64,000 nt of DNA from Gilliamella sp. wkB7 (GTDB lineage: Bacteria; Pseudomonadota; Gammaproteobacteria; Enterobacterales; Orbaceae), in NCBI RefSeq assembly GCF_001693435.1, contig NZ_CM004509.1, forward strand, positions 186,001 to 250,000. Direction: 5' to 3'. The translations under genes were made by a program, and so were the position numbers. Below are positions 47,371 to 64,000 of the stretch, in pieces; the first letter of the stretch is position 1, and each line of letters starts with the position of its first letter. The notes under the pieces were generated by a model. That model saw only the letters and a list, made by a program, of their open reading frames with translations. It ran no database searches and had not been told where the DNA came from.

Positions 47371-48048
47371 GTGAATAAATTATATTGTGAGGATTTAATA
47401 CGATTTTCGGATGCAATGTCTGACTCTAATAGAGTTATAATTATTAGTGAATTAATGAATGGTAGAGCTCTTTCAGCCTCTTGGTTAGCAAATCGATTGA
47501 ATTTGTCACCACAAGCTACTCGTTTTCATTTAAAAAAATTAGAAGATGTTGAACTTATCGAACACAGAACGTGTGGTAAACATCGCTACTATAAAATAAA
47601 AAATCAAGAAACAGCAATGTTTATTGAATCAACTTTTAAAGTTATTCCCCCTAAAGATTGTTTATTTTTACCCAATGTCAAAACTAATGAAAAATTTAAA
47701 GAGGCAAGAACATGCTATAAACATTTAGCCGGTTCATGGTCTGTTGCACTAACCCAATCATTTATTAATAATGGATTTATTGATATACAAAATAATTTTT
47801 TTGAGGTTACCGAGAATGGTAAAAATTTTTTTAATGAACATAAATTATTAGTTAATGTGTCAAATACAGCTTTTGTTGGAAAGCGCTGTATCGATTTTTC
47901 TGAACATAGAGATCATATTGGAGGTCCATTAGGAGCTTCATTGCTTCAATCAATGCTACAACAAGAATGGTTTAAACAAAATGATAATAATCGCGAATTG
48001 ACAATTACGCCGAAAGGTAGAAAAAAACTTAAATCTATTATTAATTAA
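47371..48048 (+). CDS. ArsR/winged-helix transcriptional regulator
   Basis: 225 residues with GTG start at 47371, after GGGAG. N-terminal ArsR-like winged helix: FSDAMSDSNRVIIISELMNG, SASWLANRLNLSPQATRFHL and KKLEDVELIEHRTCGKHRYY. The C-terminal part (about 90-225) has conserved-looking Cys/His residues (ARTCYKHLAGSW, FSEHRDHIGGPLGASLLQSM) seen in a group of longer ArsR-like regulators. It is divergent from the MFS exporter and probably controls it; the signal is unknown. Confidence 0.88.
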   Translation: MNKLYCEDLIRFSDAMSDSNRVIIISELMNGRALSASWLANRLNLSPQATRFHLKKLEDVELIEHRTCGKHRYYKIKNQETAMFIESTFKVIPPKDCLFLPNVKTNEKFKEARTCYKHLAGSWSVALTQSFINNGFIDIQNNFFEVTENGKNFFNEHKLLVNVSNTAFVGKRCIDFSEHRDHIGGPLGASLLQSMLQQEWFKQNDNNRELTITPKGRKKLKSIIN

Positions 48049-48752: not shown

Positions 48753-49073
48753 TTAATCGTTCCAAATTTCTTTAGCTAAACGAAACGTTGCCCAAGCTTT
48801 AGGCCAGCCAACGTAAAATGCTACATGAGTCAAAACTTCTGCTATTTCTTCTTTTGTAATGCCATTGGTTTTAGCCGTCTGTAAATGAAATTGTAAAGAA
48901 CTGTCTAAAATACCACTTGCAAGCAGTGCAGTAACCGTTACTAAACTTCTATCTCTTGCTGATAGCTCTTTTTCTCTAGACCAGACTTCACCAAATAATA
49001 CATCATCGTTAAGCTCTGCAAACTTAGGTGCAAATTCGCCTAAAACATCTCTTCCTGCTGTTACCTTATTCAT
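48753..49073 (-). CDS. Carboxymuconolactone-decarboxylase-like protein
   Basis: 106 residues with the CMD fold: SREKELSARDRSLVTVTALL, then ASGILDSSLQFHLQTAKTNG and EIAEVLTHVAFYVGWPKAWA. The AhpD-type CxxC is absent (no Cys), so it is closer to gamma-carboxymuconolactone decarboxylase-like proteins than to peroxidase partners. GGGGA precedes the ATG. Proteins like this often accompany oxidoreductase or quinone-detoxification genes. Substrate unknown. Confidence 0.88.
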   Translation of the reverse strand: MNKVTAGRDVLGEFAPKFAELNDDVLFGEVWSREKELSARDRSLVTVTALLASGILDSSLQFHLQTAKTNGITKEEIAEVLTHVAFYVGWPKAWATFRLAKEIWND

Positions 49074-50114
49074 AATTTTCCCCTTTATTTTTTTGATATA
49101 AAAGATTTAAACAACTTATAAACTATTCTGTATATAAATATTTGATAGAAGAAAAAAAGCTTAGTTCCAAATACAATGTAAAAATACAGTTTATTTATTT
49201 CTCAACAAAAACTGAAAATATTACATTTTTTATAATTTACTCTGATTTTTTTGAAAAACTATTTATTTTTAAAAGATTTTTAAGTCATTTGGTGAATATA
49301 CATTATATTTATTACAAGGAATTTTCTTATATAATACAAAAAAATATTTTTTTCTTATTTGCAAGCAAGCCTTATATCATCTTTAAATGCCCAAAATGAT
49401 TTAATTAATAAGCATAAAAATATTGAATTTTATCAAAAATATATAAGTAATCTAAATTTAAAATGCACTTTCAATTATTCAAATATTATTATCAAACTCC
49501 ACCCTAATCAATATCAATAATTTTCAATATATACCTGTTTATCTTGCGATATTGCTAATGTTATTTATCATTATGGCGTTTTATAAGCAGACTTTGTAAC
49601 CTAAATATCCAACACAAAGATATAATCCCACCATTATGTTTACCCCAAGTATCTTAATAATCAGACACTTTATATGTACTTGAAGCAACTTCCATAACAA
49701 CGATGACATCGAGCTAAAGTTCAATTAGCTTATTAGGTACTCAATTTTATTTTTATCTCTTATAGTCCTAAATTAGCGACACACTATTAAATATTCACTT
49801 CAACTCACTTTGTTCAACCTTTGTTACTCGGCATGACCAAAGTTAGTGCGCAAAAAGTTCTTATGCATAGACTATTATTAAAAATAAAGAACTTTTGCTG
49901 GTCACTCAATTTTAAACAGATAGTAAATGCATTAAACAAATCAACATTACCCTGATCAAAAAATTTCTTATTTATTAAATCATCTCATGATTTTTTATTT
50001 GTTAAAAAATAAATAGTTATCTATAAAAATCAGAAAAATTCTAAAAAAATAAATCTGATAGGGTTATTTTTAACCGATAAGGGGAGAAGTTTTTAAATTA
50101 AACGTTTAACTTAT
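49074..50114. other. Long AT-rich gap before the siderophore locus
   Basis: About 1 kb. An 85-codon frame at 49142-49399 is Phe/Ile/Lys-rich with no ribosome-binding site or motif, so I do not call it. The region holds repeat copy B (49488-49593) and, near the siderophore genes, a 12-bp palindrome TTAAACGTTTAA (50098-50109). Otherwise nothing recognised. Confidence 0.5.
49488..49593. repeat. Intergenic repeat element, copy B
   Basis: Diverged copy of the element at 48074-48192, same orientation, with nearly the same ends (ATTATCAAACTCC and ATTATGGCGTTTTATAAGCA). The two copies bracket the small frameshifted gene and the CMD-like gene. Confidence 0.6.
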
Positions 50115-50132
50115 GAATGATAATCATTCTTA
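50112..50132. promoter_or_regulatory. Fur box upstream of the siderophore genes
   Basis: GAATGATAATCATTC is a perfect palindrome matching the core of the Fur consensus (AATGATAATCATT, 13 of 13), about 80 bp before the first biosynthetic gene. It implies iron repression of the locus. Confidence 0.85.
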
Positions 50133-50206
50133 TTTATAAACATATTAATTAGCATAATCGAATGGAAGTTTAATTAAATTATGACTTACTAAAAAAGGTT
50201 AATGCA

Positions 50207-53191
50207 ATGACAAATTCTGAAACAGCAACTTGGAGTATAGAAGAACAAAAGCAATATTTAGAACTGGGATATTGGCACAAACTATCAATTGGTGCTGAAC
50301 TCAATAATTGGTGTAAATGCTATAGTAGTAATATAGCTATTATTTCTGGTAATAAAAAACTTACTTATCAAGAGCTCAATCAACAAGTAGAGTTATTGGC
50401 AGCGGGATTTTATCATCTTAAGGTACGCCCTAACGATCGTGTTTTATTGCAATTACCTAATTGTATCGGTTTTATAATTAGCTTTTTTGCCTTAATTCGG
50501 TTAGGGGCATTACCTATCTTAGCTATGCCATCACAAAGGCAGCAAGACATTCACGCCTTATGTAAATTAGCTGAACCCAAACTTTATATTGTACCTAATA
50601 GATTTTTAGGCACTAATTACCAACCTTTGATTGATGATATCACTACTCACTTTACTAATACTAGAGTGATCAACATTGATAATGAACAAGATCCAGACTT
50701 TACGTTAAGTCAATATTATCACTCTACGCCTTTCACAGTTAGTGAGCCTCATTACTTAGATCCTGCTATTTTATTATTATCTGGCGGTACAACAGGCACA
50801 CCTAAACTAATTCCTCGTACACATGCTGACTACTGTTATAACGCGAGAGCTATGGCGGAAATTTGTAAGATTGATAGCAATAGCGTTTATCTTAACGTAC
50901 TTCCCATTGCTCATAACTTCTCTTTATCTTGCCCTGGTTTATTGGGTGTTTTATCAAAAGGAGGACGCGTAGTACTGAGTAAAACAACCAGTTTTGATGA
51001 AGGTTTCAATCTCATTAAACAACACAAAGTTACCATTACTGCTCTTGTTCCTCCCCTTGCGCAATTATGGGCTAATGCAAGGGAATGGGATGATACTGAT
51101 ATTACTAGCTTGAAACTGATTCAAATAGGAGGCTCTCGATTAGAAGCAAGTATTGCAAAACAAATTAAACAAGCTATGCATTGTCAACTGCAACAAGTAT
51201 TTGGTACCGCGGAAGGTCTGATTTGCTGTACCCGATTGGATGATAGTGATGAAGTTATTTTCAATACTCAAGGCCGTCCTATTTCTCCGCACGATCAAGT
51301 ATTAATCGTTGATGAAAATGATCAACCTTTAAAAATCGGTGCTACTGGGGAAATGATTACCAAAGGCCCTTACACCATTCATGGTTATTATCGAGCAACC
51401 GAACAAAATAAAACTAGTTTTACCAAAGATAATTATTACCGTATGGGGGATTTAGTGAAATTTACCAGCACAGGTAATGTAATTGTTGAAGGACGTATCA
51501 AAGAACAGATCAATCGTGCAGGTGAAAAAATTGCGGCGGCAGAAATAGAACAAAAGCTTATTGAGTACCCCTCTATAGAAAGCTGTGCCGTAGTACCCGT
51601 TAAAGATAGTCGGTTAGGAGAGCGAAGTTGTGCTTTCATTATTTCCTCTAATAAACAAATAACTTTAAGCGATGTTAGAAATTTTCTTAAACAACAAGGT
51701 ATAGCTTTTTACAAATTGCCTGATCAATTAGAACACTTGACTAAATGGCCATTAACCTCTGTAGGAAAAATTGACAAACGCAGCTTATCTATTATAGGTG
51801 AACAACAAATGAGAAATAATCAACAACAAACTTACTTTGAACAATTAATTAGCATTAATAATCAGCCATTAGATCTTGCTGTTGCGTTGATTAACGAAAA
51901 ACTAAATGAACAATATGCAGTCTATGAGCATAATGGTGAATGGTCAGTTGGTTTGGGTAATATTGCACAACTTACAGTTTCTGCAGACAAAGCGATCATT
52001 TGTTATAACCAACAACAACAGTATTGGGACCAAGCTGAGATTATAGACAATATTAATGCGGCATTAGCTTCTTTACCCATTGCCGATTGGCGTGCTTATG
52101 GTGCGAGTAAGTTTGAATTAGCTCATATCTTCCACGATCCAGATTATATAAGTAATAATGATGAAACATTATTACAACTATTTATTCCTAGTCAAGAAGT
52201 TAGATTTACTCATAACCAAGCATTACTTAGAAGTATAACAGAGGAAGGCTTACAACAACTGCATGCTGTTGTAACAAAGTTAGATCAACTTAATCATACC
52301 GATCCAAAAATTAATAATACATTCAAAGAAAATGAAGCGATCATTCGTTCAACTAATGCTGAACTTTATAAAGAAAAAGTAGCAATCGCAGTTAATGAAA
52401 TTAAAGCAGGTCAATACCAAAAGATTATTTTATCCAGAAAAGTTCCGATTCCGGCTGATATCGATCTTGTGGCCAGCTATCAACTTGGTCGCAAACATAA
52501 TACCCCTGCTCGCTCTTTTGTACTTAATTTTAATGATCTAAAACTTATTGGTTTTAGCCCAGAAACAGTATTAGAAGTTAATAAAGAACGCATAGTAAGC
52601 ACTCAACCTTTAGCCGGCACTAGAGCCTTAAAACAAGATGATCCAGAACAGTCAGCAAAACTTTATGACGAGTTAATTAATGATACTAAAGAAATCGCCG
52701 AACATGCCGTATCTGTAAAACTTGCTTTTGAAGAATTAGAACGTGTTTGCGAAAAACACACCGTTGTTATTCCAAAATTTATGACAGTATCCAAACGTGG
52801 CACAGTACAACATCTAGCGTCACGTGTTACAGGTAAATTAAAACCTAATTTAACTTCTTGGCATGCTTTTAAATCACTCTTTCCTGCTGTAACTGCATCT
52901 GGTATACCCAAACGTGAAGCTTTAGCCGCCATTCGATATCATGAGGCAAACAAACGCGGGGCTTATAGTGGTAGCGTAATGATTGTTGATAGCAATGGTA
53001 GTTTAGATGCAGCTCTTGTATTGCGAAGTCTTTATCAACAAAACGGACAAGTTTGGTTGCAAGCAGGTGCTGGCATTATTGATCAATCATTACCTGAACG
53101 AGAACTAGAAGAAACCATCGAAAAGCTTAGTTGCATATCACGCTATTTAGTGGTTAGAGAACAAAAACCAGTGACGAGGATGGAGGGATAA
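50207..53191 (+). CDS. Fused salicyl-AMP ligase and salicylate synthase
   Basis: 994 residues combining two enzymes usually encoded separately. Residues 1-533: aryl-AMP ligase of the DhbE/YbtE family, with LLLSGGTTGTPKLIPRTH (A3), VFGTAEG (A5), YRMGDLV (A7) and GKIDKRSL (A10). At the position where 2,3-dihydroxybenzoate enzymes carry Ser (DhbE Ser240) this has Cys242 in HNFSLSCPG, the residue of salicylate-activating YbtE/PchD. Residues 535-994: MbtI/Irp9-type salicylate synthase, with RSFVLNFNDLKLIGFSPETV, STQPLAGTR, FPAVTASGIPKREAL, YSGSVMIVDSNG and VWLQAGAGII. So the protein should convert chorismate to salicylate and load it as salicyl-AMP onto the ArCP of the next protein. An internal ATG at 51809 marks the junction and could be an independent start. 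Translation is coupled to the NRPS (TAATG). Confidence 0.93.
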   Translation: MTNSETATWSIEEQKQYLELGYWHKLSIGAELNNWCKCYSSNIAIISGNKKLTYQELNQQVELLAAGFYHLKVRPNDRVLLQLPNCIGFIISFFALIRLGALPILAMPSQRQQDIHALCKLAEPKLYIVPNRFLGTNYQPLIDDITTHFTNTRVINIDNEQDPDFTLSQYYHSTPFTVSEPHYLDPAILLLSGGTTGTPKLIPRTHADYCYNARAMAEICKIDSNSVYLNVLPIAHNFSLSCPGLLGVLSKGGRVVLSKTTSFDEGFNLIKQHKVTITALVPPLAQLWANAREWDDTDITSLKLIQIGGSRLEASIAKQIKQAMHCQLQQVFGTAEGLICCTRLDDSDEVIFNTQGRPISPHDQVLIVDENDQPLKIGATGEMITKGPYTIHGYYRATEQNKTSFTKDNYYRMGDLVKFTSTGNVIVEGRIKEQINRAGEKIAAAEIEQKLIEYPSIESCAVVPVKDSRLGERSCAFIISSNKQITLSDVRNFLKQQGIAFYKLPDQLEHLTKWPLTSVGKIDKRSLSIIGEQQMRNNQQQTYFEQLISINNQPLDLAVALINEKLNEQYAVYEHNGEWSVGLGNIAQLTVSADKAIICYNQQQQYWDQAEIIDNINAALASLPIADWRAYGASKFELAHIFHDPDYISNNDETLLQLFIPSQEVRFTHNQALLRSITEEGLQQLHAVVTKLDQLNHTDPKINNTFKENEAIIRSTNAELYKEKVAIAVNEIKAGQYQKIILSRKVPIPADIDLVASYQLGRKHNTPARSFVLNFNDLKLIGFSPETVLEVNKERIVSTQPLAGTRALKQDDPEQSAKLYDELINDTKEIAEHAVSVKLAFEELERVCEKHTVVIPKFMTVSKRGTVQHLASRVTGKLKPNLTSWHAFKSLFPAVTASGIPKREALAAIRYHEANKRGAYSGSVMIVDSNGSLDAALVLRSLYQQNGQVWLQAGAGIIDQSLPERELEETIEKLSCISRYLVVREQKPVTRMEG

Positions 53192-56100
53192 TGATGTCTC
53201 TATCAGTAACGGATATTAGTTATGACGAAATTTATGATCAAATAAAGAAATTATTACCACATGGAACAGGTGAGATTAAAGATACGGATAACCTCATTGA
53301 AAGTGGGCTCGACTCATTACATATTATGCGTTTGGTTAGTCAATGGCGTAAATCTGGCTATAATATCACCTTTGCTGAACTAATAGAGCATCCAACCTTA
53401 CAACAATGGCAAACATTATTATTAAAGTCTTTTAGTGAGATTACCTCTGTTACCAGTTCAGCTACTGCGATAGATCAAGTTAAAAATGAACCATTTCCTT
53501 TAACCGATGTTCAATATGCTTATTGGATTGGTCGTGACGATAATAGAGAACTAGGTGGAGTTGCCTGCCATGCTTATTTAGAAATTGATGGTCACCTTAA
53601 TAATCCAGAGCAATTAAATTTAGCATTTAGCCAATTAATTCAACATCACCCGATGCTAAGAGCAAGCTTTACTGAAAATGGCCAACAACAAATCAAAGCA
53701 GCTAATAATAATGCTCCATTAATAGTACACGATCTACGAAAACTAACTGCTGAACAATGTACACAACGTTTAGCAGAAATTCGGAAACGACTTTCCCATC
53801 GTAAATTAGCAATTGAGCATGGCCAAGTTATAGGTCTTGAACTTTCGTTATTAGCTAACAGTAAATCCAGACTTCATTTCGATATTGATTTACTTGTGGC
53901 TGATGTACAAAGTTTAAATATTATTTTAAGAGATTTAGCACAACTTTATAGGCAAGAACTCCCTTTAAAAGCTCCTAATGATTGGAGTTTTGCCCATTAT
54001 CTAGCTAAAGAACAACAACGCAAACAAGCTAATTACCAAACATCCAAAAACTATTGGAATCAACGTTTAACAGAATTACCAGTAGGGCCACAATTACCCG
54101 TTCTCAGTAAACAAATAACTAAACCAGAGTTTACTAGGCGAACTTTTGTTCTTAACCATAATCAATGGCAAAATCTCAAACAACAAGCTGCTAAACATAA
54201 AATTACCCCTGCCATGACTCTGGCCTGTGCCTATGGTTATGTGTTAGCTCGTTGGAGTAACCATACAAACTTTTTACTTAATATCCCCTTATTTGACCGT
54301 AATGTAGAAGAGCCTGATATTGAACATGTCGTAGCGGATTTTACCAATTTATTATTATTAGATTGTGACTATAGTCAATCACACAGCTTTGCTGAACAAG
54401 CTATTCAGCTTCAACAACAATTTCATAAAAATGTTGCCTATTCCACTTACTCTGCAGTAGAAATACAAAGAGAAATGGCACGATTCAATAACCAACAAGG
54501 TATCATTGCGCCAGTGGTATTTGCATGTAATCTCGGTACACCACTACTGGATATGGCAACCTCGCAAACGTTAGGTGATCTGCATTATATGATTTCACAA
54601 ACTCCACAAGTTTGGTTAGATCACCAAGTCTATGAAATCAATGATGGTCTACTTCTGGCTTGGGATAGTGTCGAAGAACTCTTTCCTAATGGTTTAATTG
54701 ATGTCATGTTTGATGCATACTGTCAGTTGTTAATAGCTTTAAGTGAAGACGCTAATGCTTGGCAGCAATCACCATTTCAGGTATTACCTACTGCACAACA
54801 GTTCATTAGAAAGCAGGTCAACGCAGTTACTGCGCCTTTACCCTCCACTACTCTAATCGAGCCAATCTTTGCGTATGCCAAAGCTAATCCAACGTCAATT
54901 GCTTTGATATACAATGAACAAGAGATTTCTTATAAAGAGTTAACTACGCAAGCTCTTAAAATAGCCAGCCTGTTAGTCAGTAAAGGATTAAAAACTGGGG
55001 AGCCTGTCGCCGTTTCACTGCCTCGTGGACCCATGCAAATCATGGCGGTATTGGGGGTATTAGCTGCTGGCGGTGCTTATGTGCCAGTATCGATTACACA
55101 ACCAACTTCGCGTCAGCAAAAGATTTTTAATACTGCTGAAATTCGCCTAGTTCTTTGTAATCAATCTTTATTTGAAGACAGTCAATTTGAATTTATTTCA
55201 CCTCTATTTGCTATGGATTTAAAGCCATTAGCCGAACCGGTAAAAGTAGATAATAAATCTTTAGCTTATATTATCTTTACTTCCGGCTCGACCGGTGAGC
55301 CTAAAGGGGTTGAGATTAGTCATCAGGCGGCTTTAAATACGATTGTTGATATCTGTCACCGTTACCATATTGATAACTCAAGTTGTGCTCTGGCGGTTTC
55401 TTCTCTCGATTTTGATTTATCTGTATTTGATATCTTTGGTCTACTGGGTGTGGGTGGCCGTTTAGTATTAATTAGTGATGAAGAGCGTAGAGATGCTGCC
55501 AGCTGGTTACAATTAATTTTTGAACATGACGTTTGTGTATGGAACTCTGTACCTATCTTATTAGATATGCTATTGGTTGTAGCGACTCACGATACACGTA
55601 CACTCCCTTTAAAAACGGTATTACTTTCTGGGGACTGGATAGGGTTAGATTTACCTGTTCGTCTTGCTCAATGTTGTGGCAAGCTACCTAAATTGGTGGC
55701 AATGGGCGGTGCTACAGAGGGCAGTATTTGGTCGAATGCCTTTGAAGTTACTTTACCTTTACCTGAACAATGGTCTTCCATTCCTTATGGTTATCCTTTA
55801 ACAAATCAATGTTATCGTGTCGTTGATGCGTTAGGTCGAGATTGCCCGGATTATGTAGCAGGTGAATTATGGATTGGTGGTGCCGGCGTTGCGCTAGGTT
55901 ATCGTGGTACACCTGAGTTGACGGCTGAACGATTTGTTGAACTCAATGGAATGCGTTGGTATCGAACCGGCGACCGGGGTCGTTATTGGCCTGATGGTAC
56001 TCTGGAGTTTTTAGGCAGACAGGACCACCAAGTTAAAGTGCGAGGTCATCGTATTGAATTAGGTGAAATTGAATCGGCCTTAGCGGGTTTACCTGAAATT

Positions 56101-59100
56101 GCTCGTGCTGTTGCTGTAACAGTCGGCATGCCACCTCAATTGGCTGCTGCAATCCAATTAAAACAAGGGGTAACCACAACTGAACACGATATTAAACAAT
56201 CGTTACAACAACTATTACCTGATTATATGGTACCTACCAGCTTAGTCATTTACCAAAATCTGCCTTTAAATGCTAATGGTAAAGTAGATCGTAAAACCAT
56301 TATTAGTGAACTTGCTAATCAAATAAATAATACCGAAGCTATTTTTGAAGCGCCTCAAACAATCATTGAGCAACGAGTGGCTCAAGTCTGGCAAACTATT
56401 TTAAAAGTAGATCAAGTAGGACGCACGGATAGTTTCTTTGCATTAGGCGGTGACAGTTTATTAGCTACCCAAGTCATTTCACACTTAAAACAATTAGGGT
56501 TAGATACCGAACAACCCTTACGTCAACTGTTTGCTAAACCAAAATTAGCTGATTTTGCGGCTACTTTAACTCAAACCGAACAAAAAATAGAGCAACAAGT
56601 TGTAGCTGATTTAAAAAATCGCTATCAACCATTCCCTTTAACTGAAGTACAACGTGCTTACTGGATGGGACAAGCACCCGGTCTGCCTCTAAATTGTGGT
56701 ACTCATTATTTAGTAGAGCTAGATGGCACCAATGTTGATCTAACAAAGTTTAATCAAGCATGGAATCAATTAGTTAGATACCATGAAATGATGCGGGTTA
56801 CCATAGATACAGAAGGTAACCAAACTATCTTACAACATGCTGTTCCTGTCGAATTATATACTATTTCTCTGAACACAAATTCAGCCGCAAAGGCCCAACA
56901 AATCATTCATGATTATTGGCAACAACAACGTTTAACTAAGAACTATAATCATCACCTCTATGCTATTAAATATGGTCAGCAACGTTGTCGTATTGGCATT
57001 ATTTTTAACTACCTGACCTTAGATGGTTTCAGCATTAAACTGATTCTGCAACAACTGGCTATGCTATATGAAAATAGTAATACAACCCTGCCAGCTTTAG
57101 ATTTATCATTTAGAGATTTTGTCACTCAAATAGAAACTGACAATAGAACAAAAAATAATGATAAAACTTTTTGGTTAGAAAAACTAAATACATTACCTTT
57201 AGCGCCACAACTACCAATAGCAAAACAACCGGAACAACTTAATCAAGTTATTTTTAAACGTTATAGTCATCGGTTATCAGCTAATCAGTGGTCACAACTA
57301 AAATCTAAAGCACGACAACACCAGCTAACCCCTTCGGTTATCTTGTTGACTGCCTATGCTCATATTCTTGCACAATGGTCTGCAAACCAACCTCTATCGA
57401 TCAATTTAACTCTTTTTGATAGACCAAATATTCATCCACAGATTAATCAAATTGCAGGCGATTTCACTACTCTTGCCCCAGTGGGTTATTACCCCAATAG
57501 TGCACATTCTGTTATTGAGCAAGCTAAAGCAATGCAACAAGAAATTGTCGACGCATTAGAGCATAAAACCATATCTTCTATTTGGATACAAAGAGAGCGT
57601 TCTAAAACGATGGGCATGGCTACTGCTGCCTTACCTGTAGTGTTTACAAGTACTCTTGGTTTAGGACAAGATTTATTTGTAACGCAAAACCAAAGTTTTC
57701 CTGCTTTTGTAAGTGGTGGTTTATCAGAAACACCACAGGTATGGCTAGACCATCAGCTTTATGAATTTGATGGTGAGTTGGATCTTTCTTGGGACGCAGT
57801 GGAGGAACTATTCCCTATTGGTATGCTTGAGCAAATGTTTAATAGTTATATCCAACTATTAAATCAATTTATTGAACAAGATTGGCAACAACCTATCGTT
57901 ACTCTATTATCTACTGCACAACAGTTAATTAGAAAGCAGGTTAACGCAGTTACTGCGCCTTTACCCTCCACTACTCTAATCGAGCCAATCTTTGCGTATG
58001 CCAAAGCTAATCCAACATCAATTGCTTTGATATACAATGAACAAGAGATTTCTTATAAAGAGTTAACAACACAAGCTCTTAAAATAGCCAATCTGTTAGT
58101 CAGTAAAGGATTAAAAACTGGGGAGCCTGTCGCCGTTTCACTGCCTCGTGGACCCATGCAAATCATGGCGGTATTGGGGGTATTAGCTGCTGGCGGTGCT
58201 TATGTGCCAGTATCGATTACACAACCAACTTCGCGTCAGCAAAAGATTTTTAATACTGCTGAAATTCGCCTAGTTCTTTGTAATCAACCCTTATTTGAAG
58301 ACAGTCAATTTGAATTTATTTCACCTCTATTTGCTATGGATTTAAAGCCATTAGCCGAACCGGTAAAAGTAGATAATAAATCTTTAGCTTATATTATCTT
58401 TACTTCCGGCTCGACCGGTGAGCCTAAAGGGGTTGAGATTAGTCATCAGGCGGCTTTAAATACGATTGTTGATATCTGTCAGCGTTACCATATTGATAAT
58501 TCAAGTTGTGCCCTGGCGGTTTCTTCTCTCGATTTTGATTTATCTGTATTTGATATCTTTGGTCTACTGGGTGTGGGTGGCCGTTTAGTATTAATTAGTG
58601 ATGAAGAGCGCAGAGATGCTGCCAGCTGGTTACAATTAATTTTTGAACATGACGTTTGTGTATGGAACTCTGTACCTATCTTATTAGATATGCTATTGGT
58701 TGTAGCGACTCACGATACTCGTACACTCCCTTTAAAAACGGTATTACTTTCTGGGGACTGGATAGGGTTAGATTTACCTGTTCGTCTTGCTCAATGTTGT
58801 GGCAAGCTACCTAAATTGGTGGCAATGGGCGGTGCTACAGAGGGCAGTATTTGGTCTAATGCCTTTGAAGTTACTTTACCTTTACCTGAACAATGGTCTT
58901 CCATTCCTTATGGTTATCCTTTAACAAATCAATGCTATCGTGTCGTCGATTCGTTAGGTCGAGATTGCCCGGATTATGTAGCAGGTGAATTATGGATTGG
59001 TGGTGCCGGCGTTGCGCTAGGTTATCGTGGTGCACCTGAGTTGACGGCTGAACGATTTGTTGAACTCAACGGAATGCGTTGGTACCGAACCGGCGACCGA

Positions 59101-62100
59101 GGTCGTTATTGGCCCGATGGTACTCTGGAATTTTTAGGCAGACAGGACCACCAAGTTAAAGTGCGAGGTCATCGTATTGAATTAGGTGAAATTGAATCGG
59201 CCTTAGCGGGTTTACCTGAAATTGCTCGTGCTGTTGCTGTAACAGTCGGCATGCCACCTCAATTGGCTGCTGCAATCCAATTAAAGCAAGGGGTAACCAC
59301 AACTGAACACGATATTAAACAATCGTTACAGCAACTATTACCTGACTATATGGTACCTACCAGCTTAGTCATTTACCAAAATCTGCCTTTAAATGCTAAT
59401 GGTAAAATAGATCGTAAAACCATTATTAGTGAACTTGCTAATCAAATAAATAATACCGAAGCTATTTTTGAAGCGCCTCAAACAATCATTGAGCAACAAG
59501 TGGCTCAAGTCTGGCAAACTATTTTAAAAGTAGATCAAGTAGGACGCACGGATAGCTTCTTTACATTAGGCGGTGACAGTTTATTAGCTACCCAAGTCAT
59601 TTCACACTTAAAACAATTAGGGTTAGATACCGAACAACCCTTACGTCAACTGTTTGCTAAACCTAAATTAGCTGATTTTGCTGCTACTTTAACCGAAACC
59701 GAACAAAAAATAGAGCAACAAGTCGTAGCTGATTTAAAAAATCGCTATCAACCATTCCCTTTAACTGAAGTACAACGTGCTTACTGGATGGGACAAGCAC
59801 CCGGTCTACCTCTAAATTGTGGTACTCACTATTTAGTCGAACTAGATGGAGAAAGAATTGATTTACAAAGACTAACGGTAGCTTGGAATAAATTAGTAGA
59901 ACGTCATGATATGTTGCATACGATCGTTACAGAACAAGCAGAACAGCAAATTTTACCAGAATGGCCTGTTTATACCATTACCCAAACACAACATGACAAT
60001 CTATTAGAAGTAAAAAAGAGTGTTGCCGGATGGTGGCAACAACAGCAAAATGAAAAGTATAGCTTACCTTTTGCCATACACAGCTTTAACTATTCTGATA
60101 ACCGCAATTATTTAGCTATCATATTTAATTACATGAATTTAGATGGTTTTAGTATTAAGTTAGTACTAAAAGAATTAGCTGATTTCTATCAAAATCCAGA
60201 TTTACAATTACCTAAACTCACTTTATCGTTTAGAGATTATGTTACTCAAGTTAGCTATTCAACCGATGCCTTACAGAGAGCAGAAACATACTGGCGCAAC
60301 CGTATGGCAACTTTACCTGCCGCCCCACCATTACCGGTAAGAATTGATCCACAACAAATTAAACAATCTAAGTTTATTCGTAAAACGGCCAAATTGAATC
60401 AACAAACTTTTGCTGCTTTATGTAATATTGCTAAAAATCATAGTTTAACACCTTCAGTTATTATTATGTTGGTCTATGCTGAGGTACTCAGTCAATACAG
60501 TGGTGGTCAAGCTATTACGATTAATATGACTCTGTTCGATAGACAACCAGTACATCCAGAAATCTATCAAATTACAGGTGATTTTACTTCATTATTACCT
60601 ATTGCTTACGCACCTGATGCAACAAAATCATTATTAAATCAAGCCCAGTGTTTGCAAGAAGAACTGGCTACAGCACTCGATCACCGTGAAATATCTTCTA
60701 TTTGGGTACAAAGAGAGCTAGCCCGCAATAAGGGAATTAATTCTGGATCCCTACCGATTGTCTTTACGAGTACATTAGGAATTGCCGATGAATTATTACA
60801 AGATAGTGAACAACAAGGATTTTTACAGCTAACTGGCTCTGGTTTATCAGAAACTCCACAGGTATGGTTAGATCATCAATTATACCAATTAGACGGAGGT
60901 TTATTATTATCTTGGGATGCAGTAGAAGACCTATTCCCTGTGGGATTACTCGATCAAATGTTTAATAGTTATATCCAACTATTAAATCAATTTATTGAAC
61001 AAGATTGGCAACAACCTATCGTTACTCTATTACCTACTGCACAACAGTTAATTAGAAAGCAGGTTAACGCAGTTACTGCGCCTTTACCCTCCACTACTCT
61101 AATTGAGCCAATCTTTGCGTATGCCAAAGCTAATCCAACATCCATTGCTTTGATATACAATGAACAAGAGATTTCTTATAAAGAGTTAACAACACAAGCT
61201 CTTAAAATAGCCAGCCTGTTAGTCAGTAAAGGATTAAAAACTGGGGAGCCTGTCGCCGTTTCACTGCCTCGTGGACCCATGCAAATCATGGCAGTATTGG
61301 GGGTATTAGCTGCTGGCGGTGCTTATGTGCCAGTATCGATTACGCAACCAACTTCGCGTCAGCAAAAGATTTTTAATACTGCTGAAATTCGCCTAGTTCT
61401 TTGTAATCAACCCTTATTTGAAGACAGTCAATTTGAATTTATTTCACCTCTATTTGCTATGGATTTAAAGCCATTAGCCGAACCGGTAAAAGTAGATAAT
61501 AAATCTTTAGCTTATATTATCTTTACTTCCGGCTCGACCGGTGAGCCTAAAGGGGTTGAGATTAGTCATCAGGCGGCTTTAAATACGATTGTTGATATCT
61601 GTCAGCGTTACCATATTGATAACTCAAGTTGTGCTCTGGCGGTTTCTTCTCTCGATTTTGATTTATCTGTATTTGATATCTTTGGTCTACTGGGTGTGGG
61701 GGGCCGTTTAGTATTAATTAGTGATGAAGAGCGTAGAGATGCTGCCAGCTGGTTACAATTAATTTTTGAACATGACGTTTGTGTATGGAACTCTGTACCT
61801 ATCTTATTAGATATGCTATTGGTTGTAGCGACTCACGATACACGTACACTCCCTTTAAAAACGGTATTACTTTCTGGGGACTGGATAGGGTTAGATTTAC
61901 CTGTTCGTCTTGCTCAATGTTGTGGCAAGCTACCTAAATTGGTGGCAATGGGCGGTGCTACAGAGGGCAGTATTTGGTCTAATGCCTTTGAAGTTACTTT
62001 ACCTTTACCTGAACAATGGTCTTCCATTCCTTATGGTTATCCTTTAACAAATCAATGCTATCGTGTCGTCGATTCGTTAGGTCGAGATTGCCCGGATTAT

Positions 62101-62886
62101 GTAGCAGGTGAATTATGGATTGGCGGTGCCGGCGTTGCGCTAGGTTATCGTGGTGCACCTGAGTTGACGGCTGAACGATTTGTTGAACTCAATGGAATGC
62201 GTTGGTATCGAACCGGCGACCGAGGTCGTTATTGGCCTGATGGTACTCTGGAGTTTTTAGGCAGACAGGACCACCAAGTTAAAGTGCGAGGTCATCGTAT
62301 TGAATTAGGTGAAATTGAATCGGCCTTAGCGGGTTTACCTGAAATTGCTCGTGCTGTTGCTGTAACAGTCGGCATGCCACCTCAATTGGCTGCTGCAATC
62401 CAATTAAAACAAGGGGTAACCACAACTGAACACGATATTAAACAATCGTTACAACAACTATTACCTGATTATATGGTACCTACCAGCTTGGTCATTTACC
62501 AAAATCTGCCTTTAAATGCTAATGGTAAAGTAGATCGTAAAACCATTATTAGTGAACTTGCTACTCATACAACTAACGTTGTAGATAAAGAACCACCTCG
62601 AGATGAATTGGAACACCAATTAGCAGAATTATGGCAAGAAGTTCTGAAATGCCCTGCTCTGTCTCGAGATGATGATTTCTTTTTAAGTGGTGGTGATAGT
62701 TTGACTGCGACTCAAATCATACAACTTCTCCATAAACGACATATTACCCCTGAGCTTATTCCACTTAGAGCATTATTCACAGCACCTACAGTTGCTAGTT
62801 TAAGTGATTATATCAAACAACAATGGCAGACCAACTCATCAATAGCTATTAATGAAAGCACTCTATTTGAAGAAGGTACACTATGA
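53191..62886 (+). CDS. Trimodular siderophore NRPS: ArCP-(Cy-A-PCP)x3, cysteine-specific
   Basis: 3231 residues. ArCP at about 8-80 (Ppant Ser in SGLDSLHIM). Cy1 about 101-525, opening FPLTDVQYAYWIGR, with D233-LLVA-D238 and TPQVWLDHQ. A1 about 534-1035: TSGSTGEPKG, GGATEGSIW, YRTGDRG, RGHRIELGEIE, NANGKVDRK. PCP1 LGGDSL near 1089. Cy2 1148-1572, A2 1575-2075, PCP2 near 2130; Cy3 about 2189-2615, A3 2616-3116, PCP3 SGGDSL near 3170. Pocket residues read approximately D-L-F-N-L-S-M-I-W-K, close to the cysteine codes of yersiniabactin and pyochelin synthetases. Cy plus Cys implies thiazolines on a salicyl starter. Cy2 and Cy3 have NxxxxD in place of DxxxxD. No methyltransferase, epimerase or thioesterase is seen. 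The acidic end (STLFEEGTL) should dock to the next NRPS, whose ATG overlaps the stop. The product is inferred. Confidence 0.93.
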   Translation: MMSLSVTDISYDEIYDQIKKLLPHGTGEIKDTDNLIESGLDSLHIMRLVSQWRKSGYNITFAELIEHPTLQQWQTLLLKSFSEITSVTSSATAIDQVKNEPFPLTDVQYAYWIGRDDNRELGGVACHAYLEIDGHLNNPEQLNLAFSQLIQHHPMLRASFTENGQQQIKAANNNAPLIVHDLRKLTAEQCTQRLAEIRKRLSHRKLAIEHGQVIGLELSLLANSKSRLHFDIDLLVADVQSLNIILRDLAQLYRQELPLKAPNDWSFAHYLAKEQQRKQANYQTSKNYWNQRLTELPVGPQLPVLSKQITKPEFTRRTFVLNHNQWQNLKQQAAKHKITPAMTLACAYGYVLARWSNHTNFLLNIPLFDRNVEEPDIEHVVADFTNLLLLDCDYSQSHSFAEQAIQLQQQFHKNVAYSTYSAVEIQREMARFNNQQGIIAPVVFACNLGTPLLDMATSQTLGDLHYMISQTPQVWLDHQVYEINDGLLLAWDSVEELFPNGLIDVMFDAYCQLLIALSEDANAWQQSPFQVLPTAQQFIRKQVNAVTAPLPSTTLIEPIFAYAKANPTSIALIYNEQEISYKELTTQALKIASLLVSKGLKTGEPVAVSLPRGPMQIMAVLGVLAAGGAYVPVSITQPTSRQQKIFNTAEIRLVLCNQSLFEDSQFEFISPLFAMDLKPLAEPVKVDNKSLAYIIFTSGSTGEPKGVEISHQAALNTIVDICHRYHIDNSSCALAVSSLDFDLSVFDIFGLLGVGGRLVLISDEERRDAASWLQLIFEHDVCVWNSVPILLDMLLVVATHDTRTLPLKTVLLSGDWIGLDLPVRLAQCCGKLPKLVAMGGATEGSIWSNAFEVTLPLPEQWSSIPYGYPLTNQCYRVVDALGRDCPDYVAGELWIGGAGVALGYRGTPELTAERFVELNGMRWYRTGDRGRYWPDGTLEFLGRQDHQVKVRGHRIELGEIESALAGLPEIARAVAVTVGMPPQLAAAIQLKQGVTTTEHDIKQSLQQLLPDYMVPTSLVIYQNLPLNANGKVDRKTIISELANQINNTEAIFEAPQTIIEQRVAQVWQTILKVDQVGRTDSFFALGGDSLLATQVISHLKQLGLDTEQPLRQLFAKPKLADFAATLTQTEQKIEQQVVADLKNRYQPFPLTEVQRAYWMGQAPGLPLNCGTHYLVELDGTNVDLTKFNQAWNQLVRYHEMMRVTIDTEGNQTILQHAVPVELYTISLNTNSAAKAQQIIHDYWQQQRLTKNYNHHLYAIKYGQQRCRIGIIFNYLTLDGFSIKLILQQLAMLYENSNTTLPALDLSFRDFVTQIETDNRTKNNDKTFWLEKLNTLPLAPQLPIAKQPEQLNQVIFKRYSHRLSANQWSQLKSKARQHQLTPSVILLTAYAHILAQWSANQPLSINLTLFDRPNIHPQINQIAGDFTTLAPVGYYPNSAHSVIEQAKAMQQEIVDALEHKTISSIWIQRERSKTMGMATAALPVVFTSTLGLGQDLFVTQNQSFPAFVSGGLSETPQVWLDHQLYEFDGELDLSWDAVEELFPIGMLEQMFNSYIQLLNQFIEQDWQQPIVTLLSTAQQLIRKQVNAVTAPLPSTTLIEPIFAYAKANPTSIALIYNEQEISYKELTTQALKIANLLVSKGLKTGEPVAVSLPRGPMQIMAVLGVLAAGGAYVPVSITQPTSRQQKIFNTAEIRLVLCNQPLFEDSQFEFISPLFAMDLKPLAEPVKVDNKSLAYIIFTSGSTGEPKGVEISHQAALNTIVDICQRYHIDNSSCALAVSSLDFDLSVFDIFGLLGVGGRLVLISDEERRDAASWLQLIFEHDVCVWNSVPILLDMLLVVATHDTRTLPLKTVLLSGDWIGLDLPVRLAQCCGKLPKLVAMGGATEGSIWSNAFEVTLPLPEQWSSIPYGYPLTNQCYRVVDSLGRDCPDYVAGELWIGGAGVALGYRGAPELTAERFVELNGMRWYRTGDRGRYWPDGTLEFLGRQDHQVKVRGHRIELGEIESALAGLPEIARAVAVTVGMPPQLAAAIQLKQGVTTTEHDIKQSLQQLLPDYMVPTSLVIYQNLPLNANGKIDRKTIISELANQINNTEAIFEAPQTIIEQQVAQVWQTILKVDQVGRTDSFFTLGGDSLLATQVISHLKQLGLDTEQPLRQLFAKPKLADFAATLTETEQKIEQQVVADLKNRYQPFPLTEVQRAYWMGQAPGLPLNCGTHYLVELDGERIDLQRLTVAWNKLVERHDMLHTIVTEQAEQQILPEWPVYTITQTQHDNLLEVKKSVAGWWQQQQNEKYSLPFAIHSFNYSDNRNYLAIIFNYMNLDGFSIKLVLKELADFYQNPDLQLPKLTLSFRDYVTQVSYSTDALQRAETYWRNRMATLPAAPPLPVRIDPQQIKQSKFIRKTAKLNQQTFAALCNIAKNHSLTPSVIIMLVYAEVLSQYSGGQAITINMTLFDRQPVHPEIYQITGDFTSLLPIAYAPDATKSLLNQAQCLQEELATALDHREISSIWVQRELARNKGINSGSLPIVFTSTLGIADELLQDSEQQGFLQLTGSGLSETPQVWLDHQLYQLDGGLLLSWDAVEDLFPVGLLDQMFNSYIQLLNQFIEQDWQQPIVTLLPTAQQLIRKQVNAVTAPLPSTTLIEPIFAYAKANPTSIALIYNEQEISYKELTTQALKIASLLVSKGLKTGEPVAVSLPRGPMQIMAVLGVLAAGGAYVPVSITQPTSRQQKIFNTAEIRLVLCNQPLFEDSQFEFISPLFAMDLKPLAEPVKVDNKSLAYIIFTSGSTGEPKGVEISHQAALNTIVDICQRYHIDNSSCALAVSSLDFDLSVFDIFGLLGVGGRLVLISDEERRDAASWLQLIFEHDVCVWNSVPILLDMLLVVATHDTRTLPLKTVLLSGDWIGLDLPVRLAQCCGKLPKLVAMGGATEGSIWSNAFEVTLPLPEQWSSIPYGYPLTNQCYRVVDSLGRDCPDYVAGELWIGGAGVALGYRGAPELTAERFVELNGMRWYRTGDRGRYWPDGTLEFLGRQDHQVKVRGHRIELGEIESALAGLPEIARAVAVTVGMPPQLAAAIQLKQGVTTTEHDIKQSLQQLLPDYMVPTSLVIYQNLPLNANGKVDRKTIISELATHTTNVVDKEPPRDELEHQLAELWQEVLKCPALSRDDDFFLSGGDSLTATQIIQLLHKRHITPELIPLRALFTAPTVASLSDYIKQQWQTNSSIAINESTLFEEGTL
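54787..56727 (+). repeat. NRPS module repeat, copy 1 (A1-PCP1-start of Cy2)
   Basis: Near-identical to the segment 3123 bp downstream, covering the linker, adenylation domain, PCP and the first residues of the next Cy domain. Differences are mostly single synonymous bases; a few change residues (for example His/Gln in DICxRYH). Confidence 0.9.
57835..59850 (+). repeat. NRPS module repeat, copy 2 (end of Cy2-A2-PCP2-start of Cy3)
   Basis: Shares 57910-59850 with copy 1 and 57835-59442 with copy 3, both at an offset of exactly 3123 bp. Confidence 0.9.
60958..62565 (+). repeat. NRPS module repeat, copy 3 (end of Cy3-A3)
   Basis: Near-identical to copy 2 from the last 25 residues of the Cy domain through the A10 motif, then diverges sharply: PCP3 is a different sequence. 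Confidence 0.9.
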
Positions 62887-64000
62887 ATAAAGCAATAACT
62901 ATAGAAACTTTATTGAACGAATTATCCTCACAAGGTGTATTACTTTGGTCAGAAGGTGATCAGTTAAAATTTAAAGCACCTGCTGGGGTAATAACCGAAC
63001 AATATAAAGCGTATTTAAAAGAGAATAAGCAACAAATTATTGAGTATTTATCATTAGTTAATAACAACCGTATTGAACATGATGCTCATGGACGCTATCA
63101 ACCATTTCCACTTACTGATCTGCAACTAGCTTATATGGTGGGTCGTAGTAATCTTTATGAATATGGTGATGTTGGTTGCCATAGTTATATTGAATTAGAA
63201 TTACCTAAAACTAATGGCAAACAATTAGAAGCAGCTTGGCATGGATTGATTATGCGTCATGATATGTTACGAGCTGTTATACTAAAAGATGGTACACAGC
63301 AAGTACAATCAGAAGTAATTTTACCTTCACTTATCGAAAATGATTTTAGTCAATTAGATGCACAACAGGCAGAGCAACAGCTATTAGCCATAAGAAAGCA
63401 ACTATCGCATCGTTGCTACGATCCTAATCAATGGCCTTTATTTGATTTACAGCTAAGCCATATCGCACATGGAGCAATTTTACATTTTTCTATTGATCTA
63501 TTAATTGCTGATTTTGCTAGTATTCAAATCTTATTAGCTGAACTTGGTGAAGCTTACCATCATGGTGTAATGAGTTTAGCCGAACTCCCTATTACTTTCC
63601 GTGATGTGGTATTAGCCAAAAAACAAGCTTTTAATAATCCTCTTTATCAAGAACGCTATGAAAGACACAAACAGTATTGGCTAAAACAACTCGAAACGAT
63701 GCCATTGCCTCCAGAGTTACCAACAATTAGCAAGCAACAAAACCAAATTGTAACGTTTGAAAGATTTAACTTTACTCTGACTAAAGAACGTTGGCGAGCA
63801 CTTTGTCAAATTTCGACTAGCCATAAACTAACACCATCAAGTGTGGTGTTAACCGCTTTTACGGATGTGTTAGCGCGTTGGTCTCGTCATCCAGATTTTT
63901 GTATTAACTTAACTTTATTTAATCGACCTACTGATTACATAGGGGTACATAACATTGTAGGTGATTTTATTGCAGTCAATGTATTGGGCATTAGAAATAA
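62883..64000 (+). CDS. Siderophore NRPS with TubC docking domain and Cy domain, partial
   Basis: The ATG overlaps the previous stop (ATGA); 372 residues are visible before the right edge. Residues 1-55 form a TubC-type N-terminal docking domain (ETLLNELSSQGVLLWSEGDQ, LKFKAPAGVITEQ, LKENKQQIIEYL). From about residue 75 begins a heterocyclization domain: YQPFPLTDLQLAYMVGRS, HSYIELELP, MRHDMLRAVI, FSIDLLIADFASIQI (canonical DxxxxD), and INLTLFNRP. It should accept the chain from the third Cys module and form another ring. What follows, including any A, PKS, methyltransferase or release domain, lies outside the window. Confidence 0.92.
   Translation, partial: MNKAITIETLLNELSSQGVLLWSEGDQLKFKAPAGVITEQYKAYLKENKQQIIEYLSLVNNNRIEHDAHGRYQPFPLTDLQLAYMVGRSNLYEYGDVGCHSYIELELPKTNGKQLEAAWHGLIMRHDMLRAVILKDGTQQVQSEVILPSLIENDFSQLDAQQAEQQLLAIRKQLSHRCYDPNQWPLFDLQLSHIAHGAILHFSIDLLIADFASIQILLAELGEAYHHGVMSLAELPITFRDVVLAKKQAFNNPLYQERYERHKQYWLKQLETMPLPPELPTISKQQNQIVTFERFNFTLTKERWRALCQISTSHKLTPSSVVLTAFTDVLARWSRHPDFCINLTLFNRPTDYIGVHNIVGDFIAVNVLGIRN

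Follow-up and report, generated by a model that had tools for sequence, protein, structure and literature searches.

A probable ulbactin-type assembly line for a salicylate- and cysteine-derived iron chelator in Gilliamella sp. wkB7

The DNA analysed here (the window, 64,000 nucleotides) comprises bases 186001-250000 of the one-contig genome of Gilliamella sp. wkB7 (2,901,642 bases); published work counts the genus among the core bacteria of the honeybee gut and reports it from Drosophila as well. Three open reading frames were confirmed in its last part, the third of which runs past the window end (Table 1). The fused salicylate-forming and -activating enzyme that had been predicted for gene 1 is recovered by profile search, the salicylate synthase part matching TIGR03494 with 466.8 bits, above the cut-off of 325.15, and the AMP ligase part matching TIGR02275 with 620.6 bits, below the cut-off of 723.55. 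Likewise, three Condensation, three AMP-binding and four PP-binding stretches in gene 2 (Pfam/NCBIfam) agree with the ArCP-(Cy-A-PCP)x3 order that the original prediction had placed on this single chain, and TubC_N and Condensation matches (Pfam/NCBIfam) at the start of gene 3 agree with a docking domain and a fourth Cy. The window holds the TubC docking domain and the start of Cy4, with gene 3 ending 3454 bases beyond it, and what remains of Cy4, together with A4-PCP-R and genes 4-9 (up to genome position 261888), lies outside. The further modules anticipated beyond 64000 are found there in the form of A-PCP-R, which completes a fourth Cy-A-PCP.

Table 1. Features of the cluster in the window; positions are those of the window unless stated otherwise.
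Feature	Position	Strand	Basis or remark
Fur-box-like site, weak, upstream of gene 1	50113..50131	+	14/19 to consensus
Gene 1, 994 aa, EntE-like salicylate-AMP ligase fused to salicylate synthase	50207..53191	+	Pfam/NCBIfam
Gene 2, 3231 aa, ArCP-(Cy-A-PCP)x3	53191..62886	+	ORF and Pfam/NCBIfam
Cy1: DLLVADVQS with the Arg retained; dyad Thr position occupied by Ala, like PchE	53494..54777	+	
A1, pocket DLFNLSMIW, cysteine type	54829..56316	+	
Cy2: NYLTLDGFS, Gln for conserved Arg; dyad Thr/Asp and helper Gln kept	56608..57930 (limits approximate)	+	
A2, near-identical to A1 and A3	57952..59439	+	
Cy3: NYMNLDGFS, Gln for conserved Arg	59731..61068 (limits approximate)	+	
A3, near-identical to A1 and A2	61075..62562	+	
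Gene 3, 1523 aa, TubC docking-Cy4-A4-PCP-R	62883..64000 in window; ends at genome position 253454	+	

After gene 3, genome positions 253451-261888 encode a type II thioesterase, a TonB receptor, two reductases (RedA and RedB), an AraC regulator, whose gene lies on the strand opposite to the rest of the cluster, and an FptX-like transporter. The anticipated receptor gene is thereby found (737 aa; TIGR01783, 165.6 bits, under the cut-off of 223.5), and the top NCBIfam match of the transporter is RhtX/FptX with 260.6 bits, also under its cut-off (356.15). The expectation of a thioesterase holds for a separate type II gene but not for the line itself, which carries an R domain in place of a TE domain; profile searches found no PKS, methyltransferase or TE domains in genes 2 and 3, and neither methyltransferase nor P450 among genes 1-9 (Pfam/NCBIfam). 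A reductase of the Irp3/PchG type had been expected as well, yet this thiazolinyl imide reductase family (TIGR01761) has no match in the whole genome at E 0.001, RedA and RedB being the reductases at the locus. On the upstream side, window positions 48753-49073 and 47371-48048 hold a carboxymuconolactone decarboxylase family gene and an ArsR-like regulator, the regulator being found in 8 of 35 Gilliamella genomes; in these 35 genomes the downstream flank genes were matched in 21 (E 1e-60) and the upstream ones in 8 (E 1e-30).

The Gilliamella lineage is not the sole bearer of this line, and the layout, which had been regarded as unusual, recurs in Pseudoalteromonas and Vibrio, with ulbactins reported from P. 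flavipulchra. It is found on the conjugative plasmid p1 of Vibrio lentus and in P. piscicida 2515; the whole line with its R domain was read in wkB7 (G000 in our numbering of genomes), G001, V. lentus p1 and P. piscicida; for G146 the reading covers only gene 3. For salicylate, P. piscicida has the gene 1 fusion and V. lentus a separate salicylate synthase. Among 275 matching plasmid records, three (V. lentus p1, P. piscicida and Pseudoalteromonas sp. NC201) have a single place that covers at least 80% of gene 3. A search with Cy2 matched 1841 proteins, and the 120 listed include at least 13 proteins of 3224-3538 aa that have three Cy domains, the first with Arg/Ala and the second with Gln, three shorter proteins with the same pattern being left out of this count; eight of the 13 were paired by eye with RedA or RedB matches of apparently the same genome, among them those of Methylophaga frappieri, Oceanospirillum sediminis, Burkholderia guangdongensis and Pseudomonas matsuisoli. 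RedA adjoins RedB in all 11 loci read. Across the class, 369 evenly drawn genomes gave a RedB match in wkB7 alone (E 1e-20), so that it is rare there, and within the order 33 of 394 genomes had a match of some kind at E 0.001, nine of them a strong one (E < 1e-150, wkB7 included). The locus thus joins a family of lines that is scattered and has been little described.

Several members of this family are incomplete as read. The synthetase genes of G205 are split into several frames, for which reason it was excluded as a full example; its split line (L054, L055) represents a pseudogene or an assembly error. G285 has RedA and RedB with no synthetase match on the contig examined, and in G367, G292, G343 and G104 the synthetase genes reach the limits of the DNA examined. 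In the metagenome-assembled genome G004, gene 2 has one Cys module only, which likely reflects assembly collapse of near-identical repeats, deletion being the alternative. Close to the line on the V. lentus plasmid (NZ_AP025501.1, 203923-207560) lies a second iron ABC transporter set together with a nicotianamine-synthase family gene, a candidate second metallophore locus. No report of the cluster in Gilliamella was recognised in the literature searched, which contained few of the subscription journals, and antiSMASH NRPS and siderophore clusters are listed for Gilliamella, with no description of this line in the part of the article consulted (PMC9598484).

Alignment gives the pocket code DLFNLSMIW for A1-A3, which can be compared with DLFNLSLI of PchE and DLYNMSMI of HMWP2 in a published table of cysteine codes (PMC3672683), and the cysteine type predicted for these three domains is upheld by the likeness to PchE, which is also the top solved match of A1 by whole-sequence score. 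The code of A4 is DLWNFSLIW, with a tryptophan at position 239 and a phenylalanine at 299 that are absent from the cysteine codes in the part of this table that was compared (PMC3672683), and among solved structures linear gramicidin synthase scores highest against it by whole score, followed by others, BmdB and PchE included. The A4 pocket is the same in G001 and reads DLWNMSQIW in P. piscicida, DLLNFSLVT in V. lentus and DLLNFSLVA in G146; D235, L236, N278 and S301 are kept in all four of these further readable pockets, the broken A4 of G205 being left out of the comparison. It is therefore likely, but not certain, that A4 activates cysteine, with a pocket less canonical than those of A1-A3. 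In DNA, A1, A2 and A3 are 98.2-98.7% identical to each other, and 99.6-100% in V. lentus, whereas Cy1-Cy3 within one line share 35-57% protein identity; the A domains, but not the Cy domains, are thus homogenised within these genomes. The two A domains compared in G001 are 83% identical in DNA, so that homogenisation is not equally recent everywhere.

In Cy2 of HMWP2 a dyad is formed by T1830 and D1862 with Q1864 as helper, and a conserved arginine (R1509) pairs with the first aspartate of the DxxxxD motif in EpoB and PchE (PMC9547227). The equivalents of these four residues were read from alignments to solved Cy domains; Cy1 and Cy2 match those of PchE, HMWP2, EpoB and BmdB, the top match being PchE for Cy1 and HMWP2 Cy2 for Cy2. 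The catalytic aspartate and the helper glutamine (TPQVWLDxQ motif) are present in all four Cy domains of the line and the dyad threonine in three, Cy1 being the exception. Cy1 and Cy4 keep Arg and Asp with an intact DxxxxD motif, while in Cy2 and Cy3 Gln-Asn replaces Arg-Asp and the motif becomes NxxxxD, as it does in V. lentus. Despite this change, Cy2 and Cy3, which resemble solved Cy domains or relatives of these, are taken to work like other Cy domains. Among the 120 matches listed, 337 Cy-like domains were read, and their Arg/Asp states were Arg-Asp (264), Gln-Asp (34), Gln-Asn (19), Arg-Glu (13) and others (7). The first aspartate is missing in 38 of these 337 domains of relatives, so that the DxxxxD motif is not absolute. 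Moreover, asparagine occurs in none of 280 domains with Arg and in 19 of 54 with Gln among the matches listed (Fisher 4e-17, uncorrected for kinship), indicating that loss of the aspartate to asparagine accompanies loss of the arginine. A strict swap of Arg-Asp for Gln-Asn is ruled out, since Cy2 of P. piscicida has Gln with Asp and since, among the matches listed, Gln is paired with Asp (34/54) more often than with Asn. The inner Cy domains are a natural experiment on the DxxxxD motif. Cy1 is 53% identical to V. lentus Cy1 compared with 39 and 36% to Cy2 and Cy3 of its own line, while Cy2 and Cy3 are 57% identical to each other and match the corresponding V. lentus domains at 57 and 52% (51-57% over the Cy2 and Cy3 domains of both species); only Cy1 bears out the idea that a Cy domain stays at a fixed position of the line from species to species. 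A large, different NRPS cluster in another Gilliamella genome (G021:C18:118001-175000) contains one or more Cy domains with the Arg-Asp pair.

RedA (373 aa) and RedB (634 aa) both carry a saccharopine-dehydrogenase NADP domain, and the top Foldseek matches of their predicted structures (pLDDT 92.9 and 93.8, respectively) are carboxyspermidine, L-lysine and saccharopine dehydrogenases. Such dehydrogenases act at C=N or C-N bonds. In the enantio-pyochelin system PchK carries the annotation saccharopine dehydrogenase (PMC3377617), thiazoline reduction in Streptomyces venezuelae requires a homologue of PchK (PMC11626248), and for sorangibactin a saccharopine-dehydrogenase-like protein is called indispensable, with its function given as unknown (PMC10127202). 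On the basis of the modelled folds, RedA and RedB are two side-by-side candidate thiazolinyl imine reductases. RedB carries an extra C-terminal half (L010:7699-9603), a suggestive pairing on a thiazoline pathway: the Pfam family ATC_hydrolase (2-amino-thiazoline-4-carboxylate hydrolase) matches 18 of 66 family members at E 0.001, the wkB7 protein among them at 21.5 bits, below the family cut-off of 28.1, which hints that this half may bind a thiazoline ring. The release domain of gene 3 matches the thioester-reductase family TIGR01746 with 233.9 bits (cut-off 213.35), and TGxxGxxG and Yxx(S/T)K are present in all five copies of the R domain that were read.

The original prediction described the locus as iron-regulated through a Fur box. 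The palindrome at 50115-50129 is indeed perfect over 15 bp, but the site (50113-50131) agrees with the 19-bp Fur consensus at only 14 positions; a consensus search found no site with three or fewer mismatches upstream of gene 1, and 19 matches of this grade lie across the 64-kb window. Regulation by Fur is not established. In simulated 200-bp regions a 14-of-19 match occurred in about 2.7% and a 15-bp palindrome in 6.4%. The site is kept in the relative of 98% identity; in G001 the top Fur match near the same place reaches 13/19, and upstream of the V. lentus salicylate synthase no Fur site was found (at least nine mismatches). A scan for sigma-70 sites found none, with 4.9 expected by chance. 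Iron control of the cluster is plausible.

Horizontal transfer of the cluster is suggested by a mismatch between cluster identity and core identity, both among Gilliamella species and relative to Entomomonas; the core baseline is thin, being one gene (PheT), and applies to Gilliamella, Entomomonas being compared by RedA and RedB. Gene 3 occurs in 4 of 35 Gilliamella genomes, some of which are incomplete. Between G004 and wkB7 gene 3 is 99% identical and PheT 83%, and G011, with a PheT 97% identical to that of wkB7, shows no gene 3 and no RedA. Gene 1 is 98% identical to that of CAMLPV010000028.1, recorded as 'uncultured Gilliamella sp.'. RedA and RedB of G001 are 73.5 and 76.1% identical to those of wkB7, compared with 87.6 and 87.5% to those of Entomomonas moraniae, which belongs to the Pseudomonadales, Gilliamella being a member of the Orbales. 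In a RedB tree of 27 hand-picked proteins Entomomonas joins G001 with support of 100/98.

Pyochelin synthetase has two Cy-A-PCP modules, a methyltransferase and a TE domain. The Gilliamella line resembles it in that A1 and Cy1 are closest to PchE and in its AraC regulator, type II thioesterase and FptX-like transporter, but it has four Cy modules, R in place of TE, no methyltransferase and no reductase of the PchG type. With the yersiniabactin, piscibactin and photoxenobactin systems (HMWP2, PxbF/G/J) it shares the salicylate and Cy-A-PCP chemistry, PxbJ being described as the same salicylate synthase/ligase fusion as gene 1; it differs from them in having no PKS, such as the HMWP1-type part of yersiniabactin, in having one A domain per module instead of one serving several carriers, and in lacking an Irp3 type and releasing by R. 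The salicylate cap, the three Cys modules with a further Cy and the kinship with the pyochelin/yersiniabactin group, all of which had been proposed, are supported, but the line ends unlike either. Sorangibactin and mupirochelin, according to the parts of their descriptions consulted, are also salicylate-capped thiazolidine chains with a saccharopine-dehydrogenase-like gene, and differ by TE release, methylation and P450 genes, none of which is found in Gilliamella genes 1-9. The P. piscicida line shares the module arrangement, RedA and RedB; its gene 3 is 51% identical and the Cy and A domains of its gene 2 are 48-59% identical to those of Gilliamella, while the FptX-like transporter of the Gilliamella cluster was not matched in the P. 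piscicida stretch examined.

The locus is probably an ulbactin-type assembly line that joins salicylate with three or four cysteines to yield a reductively released iron chelator. P. piscicida, which we take to be a close relative of P. flavipulchra, is the link to the ulbactins, and the assignment rests on this kinship and the two reductases rather than on a sequence match to strain S16. P. flavipulchra S16 yields ulbactin analogues, one of which is described as a potent iron chelator (PMC12819058), and two novel thiazolinyl imine reductases were reported to be essential for thiazolidine formation in its ulbactins (Gu et al. 2025, doi 10.1021/acs.jafc.5c02142, cited in PMC12819058). Since the same layout is found in P. 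piscicida and the thiazolidine rings of the S16 ulbactins need two such reductases, of which RedA and RedB would be the Gilliamella counterparts, a known kind of cluster in a new host, Gilliamella, is most likely. In the proposed route gene 1 would make salicylate and load the ArCP, modules 1-3 would add and cyclise cysteines, and the docking domain would pass the chain to module 4, where a fourth cysteine is added or the module is skipped. RedA and RedB may then reduce thiazoline C=N bonds to give thiazolidines, and the R domain may release an aldehyde or alcohol, which could close further rings; the TonB receptor and FptX-like transporter would import the iron complex. The product predicted from the domain order is a salicyl group followed by three or four cysteine heterocycles, some of them reduced, ending in an aldehyde or alcohol, and Gilliamella, as a core bee-gut symbiont, thereby gains a predicted siderophore with a testable structure.

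Ulbactins F and G fit salicylate and three cysteines, and since a fourth module would bring the cysteines to four, either module 4 or the release step is left unexplained by the ulbactin assignment. The presence of four complete Cy-A-PCP modules with an R domain would suit a separate, undescribed siderophore made by this kind of line, namely an aldehyde or alcohol of salicyl-tetra-thiazol(in/id)ine type that is not ulbactin, and gene 3 is just 45-51% identical to its V. lentus and Pseudoalteromonas counterparts, with differing A4 pockets; however, module order, docking, R domain and the RedA-RedB pair are common to the Pseudoalteromonas line, and we consider a separate product unlikely. Also rather unlikely is the wider proposal of a four-Cys salicyl polythiazol(id)ine metallophore that is released as an aldehyde and is not an ulbactin, from a cluster that is transferred whole between the Orbaceae and Pseudomonadaceae of insect guts and whose two inner Cy domains heterocyclise by means of a neutral Gln-Asn pair instead of Arg-Asp.

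That the line is instead a pyochelin/yersiniabactin variant with idle or degenerating extra modules, in which Cy2 and Cy3 no longer cyclise, is suggested by the asparagine in place of the first aspartate in both, but is highly improbable, given that both keep the dyad Thr and Asp and the helper Gln, that the Gln-Asn state is retained in V. lentus at 51-57% identity, and that among the matches listed Asn appears only where Arg is already Gln. It is equally hard to credit a zinc or copper metallophore or an antibiotic as the main product rather than an iron siderophore: the Fur box is weak and the related mupirochelin is reported to bind zinc as well, yet the top NCBIfam matches of receptor and transporter are a TonB siderophore receptor and RhtX/FptX, both under cut-off. 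The ulbactin-type line is thus the reading we prefer.

Elsewhere in the wkB7 genome (G000:C1:2852487-2867369) lies a second, unrelated NRPS of 4960 aa with five Condensation, four AMP-binding and a Thioesterase domain, which adjoins a phosphopantetheinyl transferase family match, and frames of similar length match it in G005, G006 and G011.
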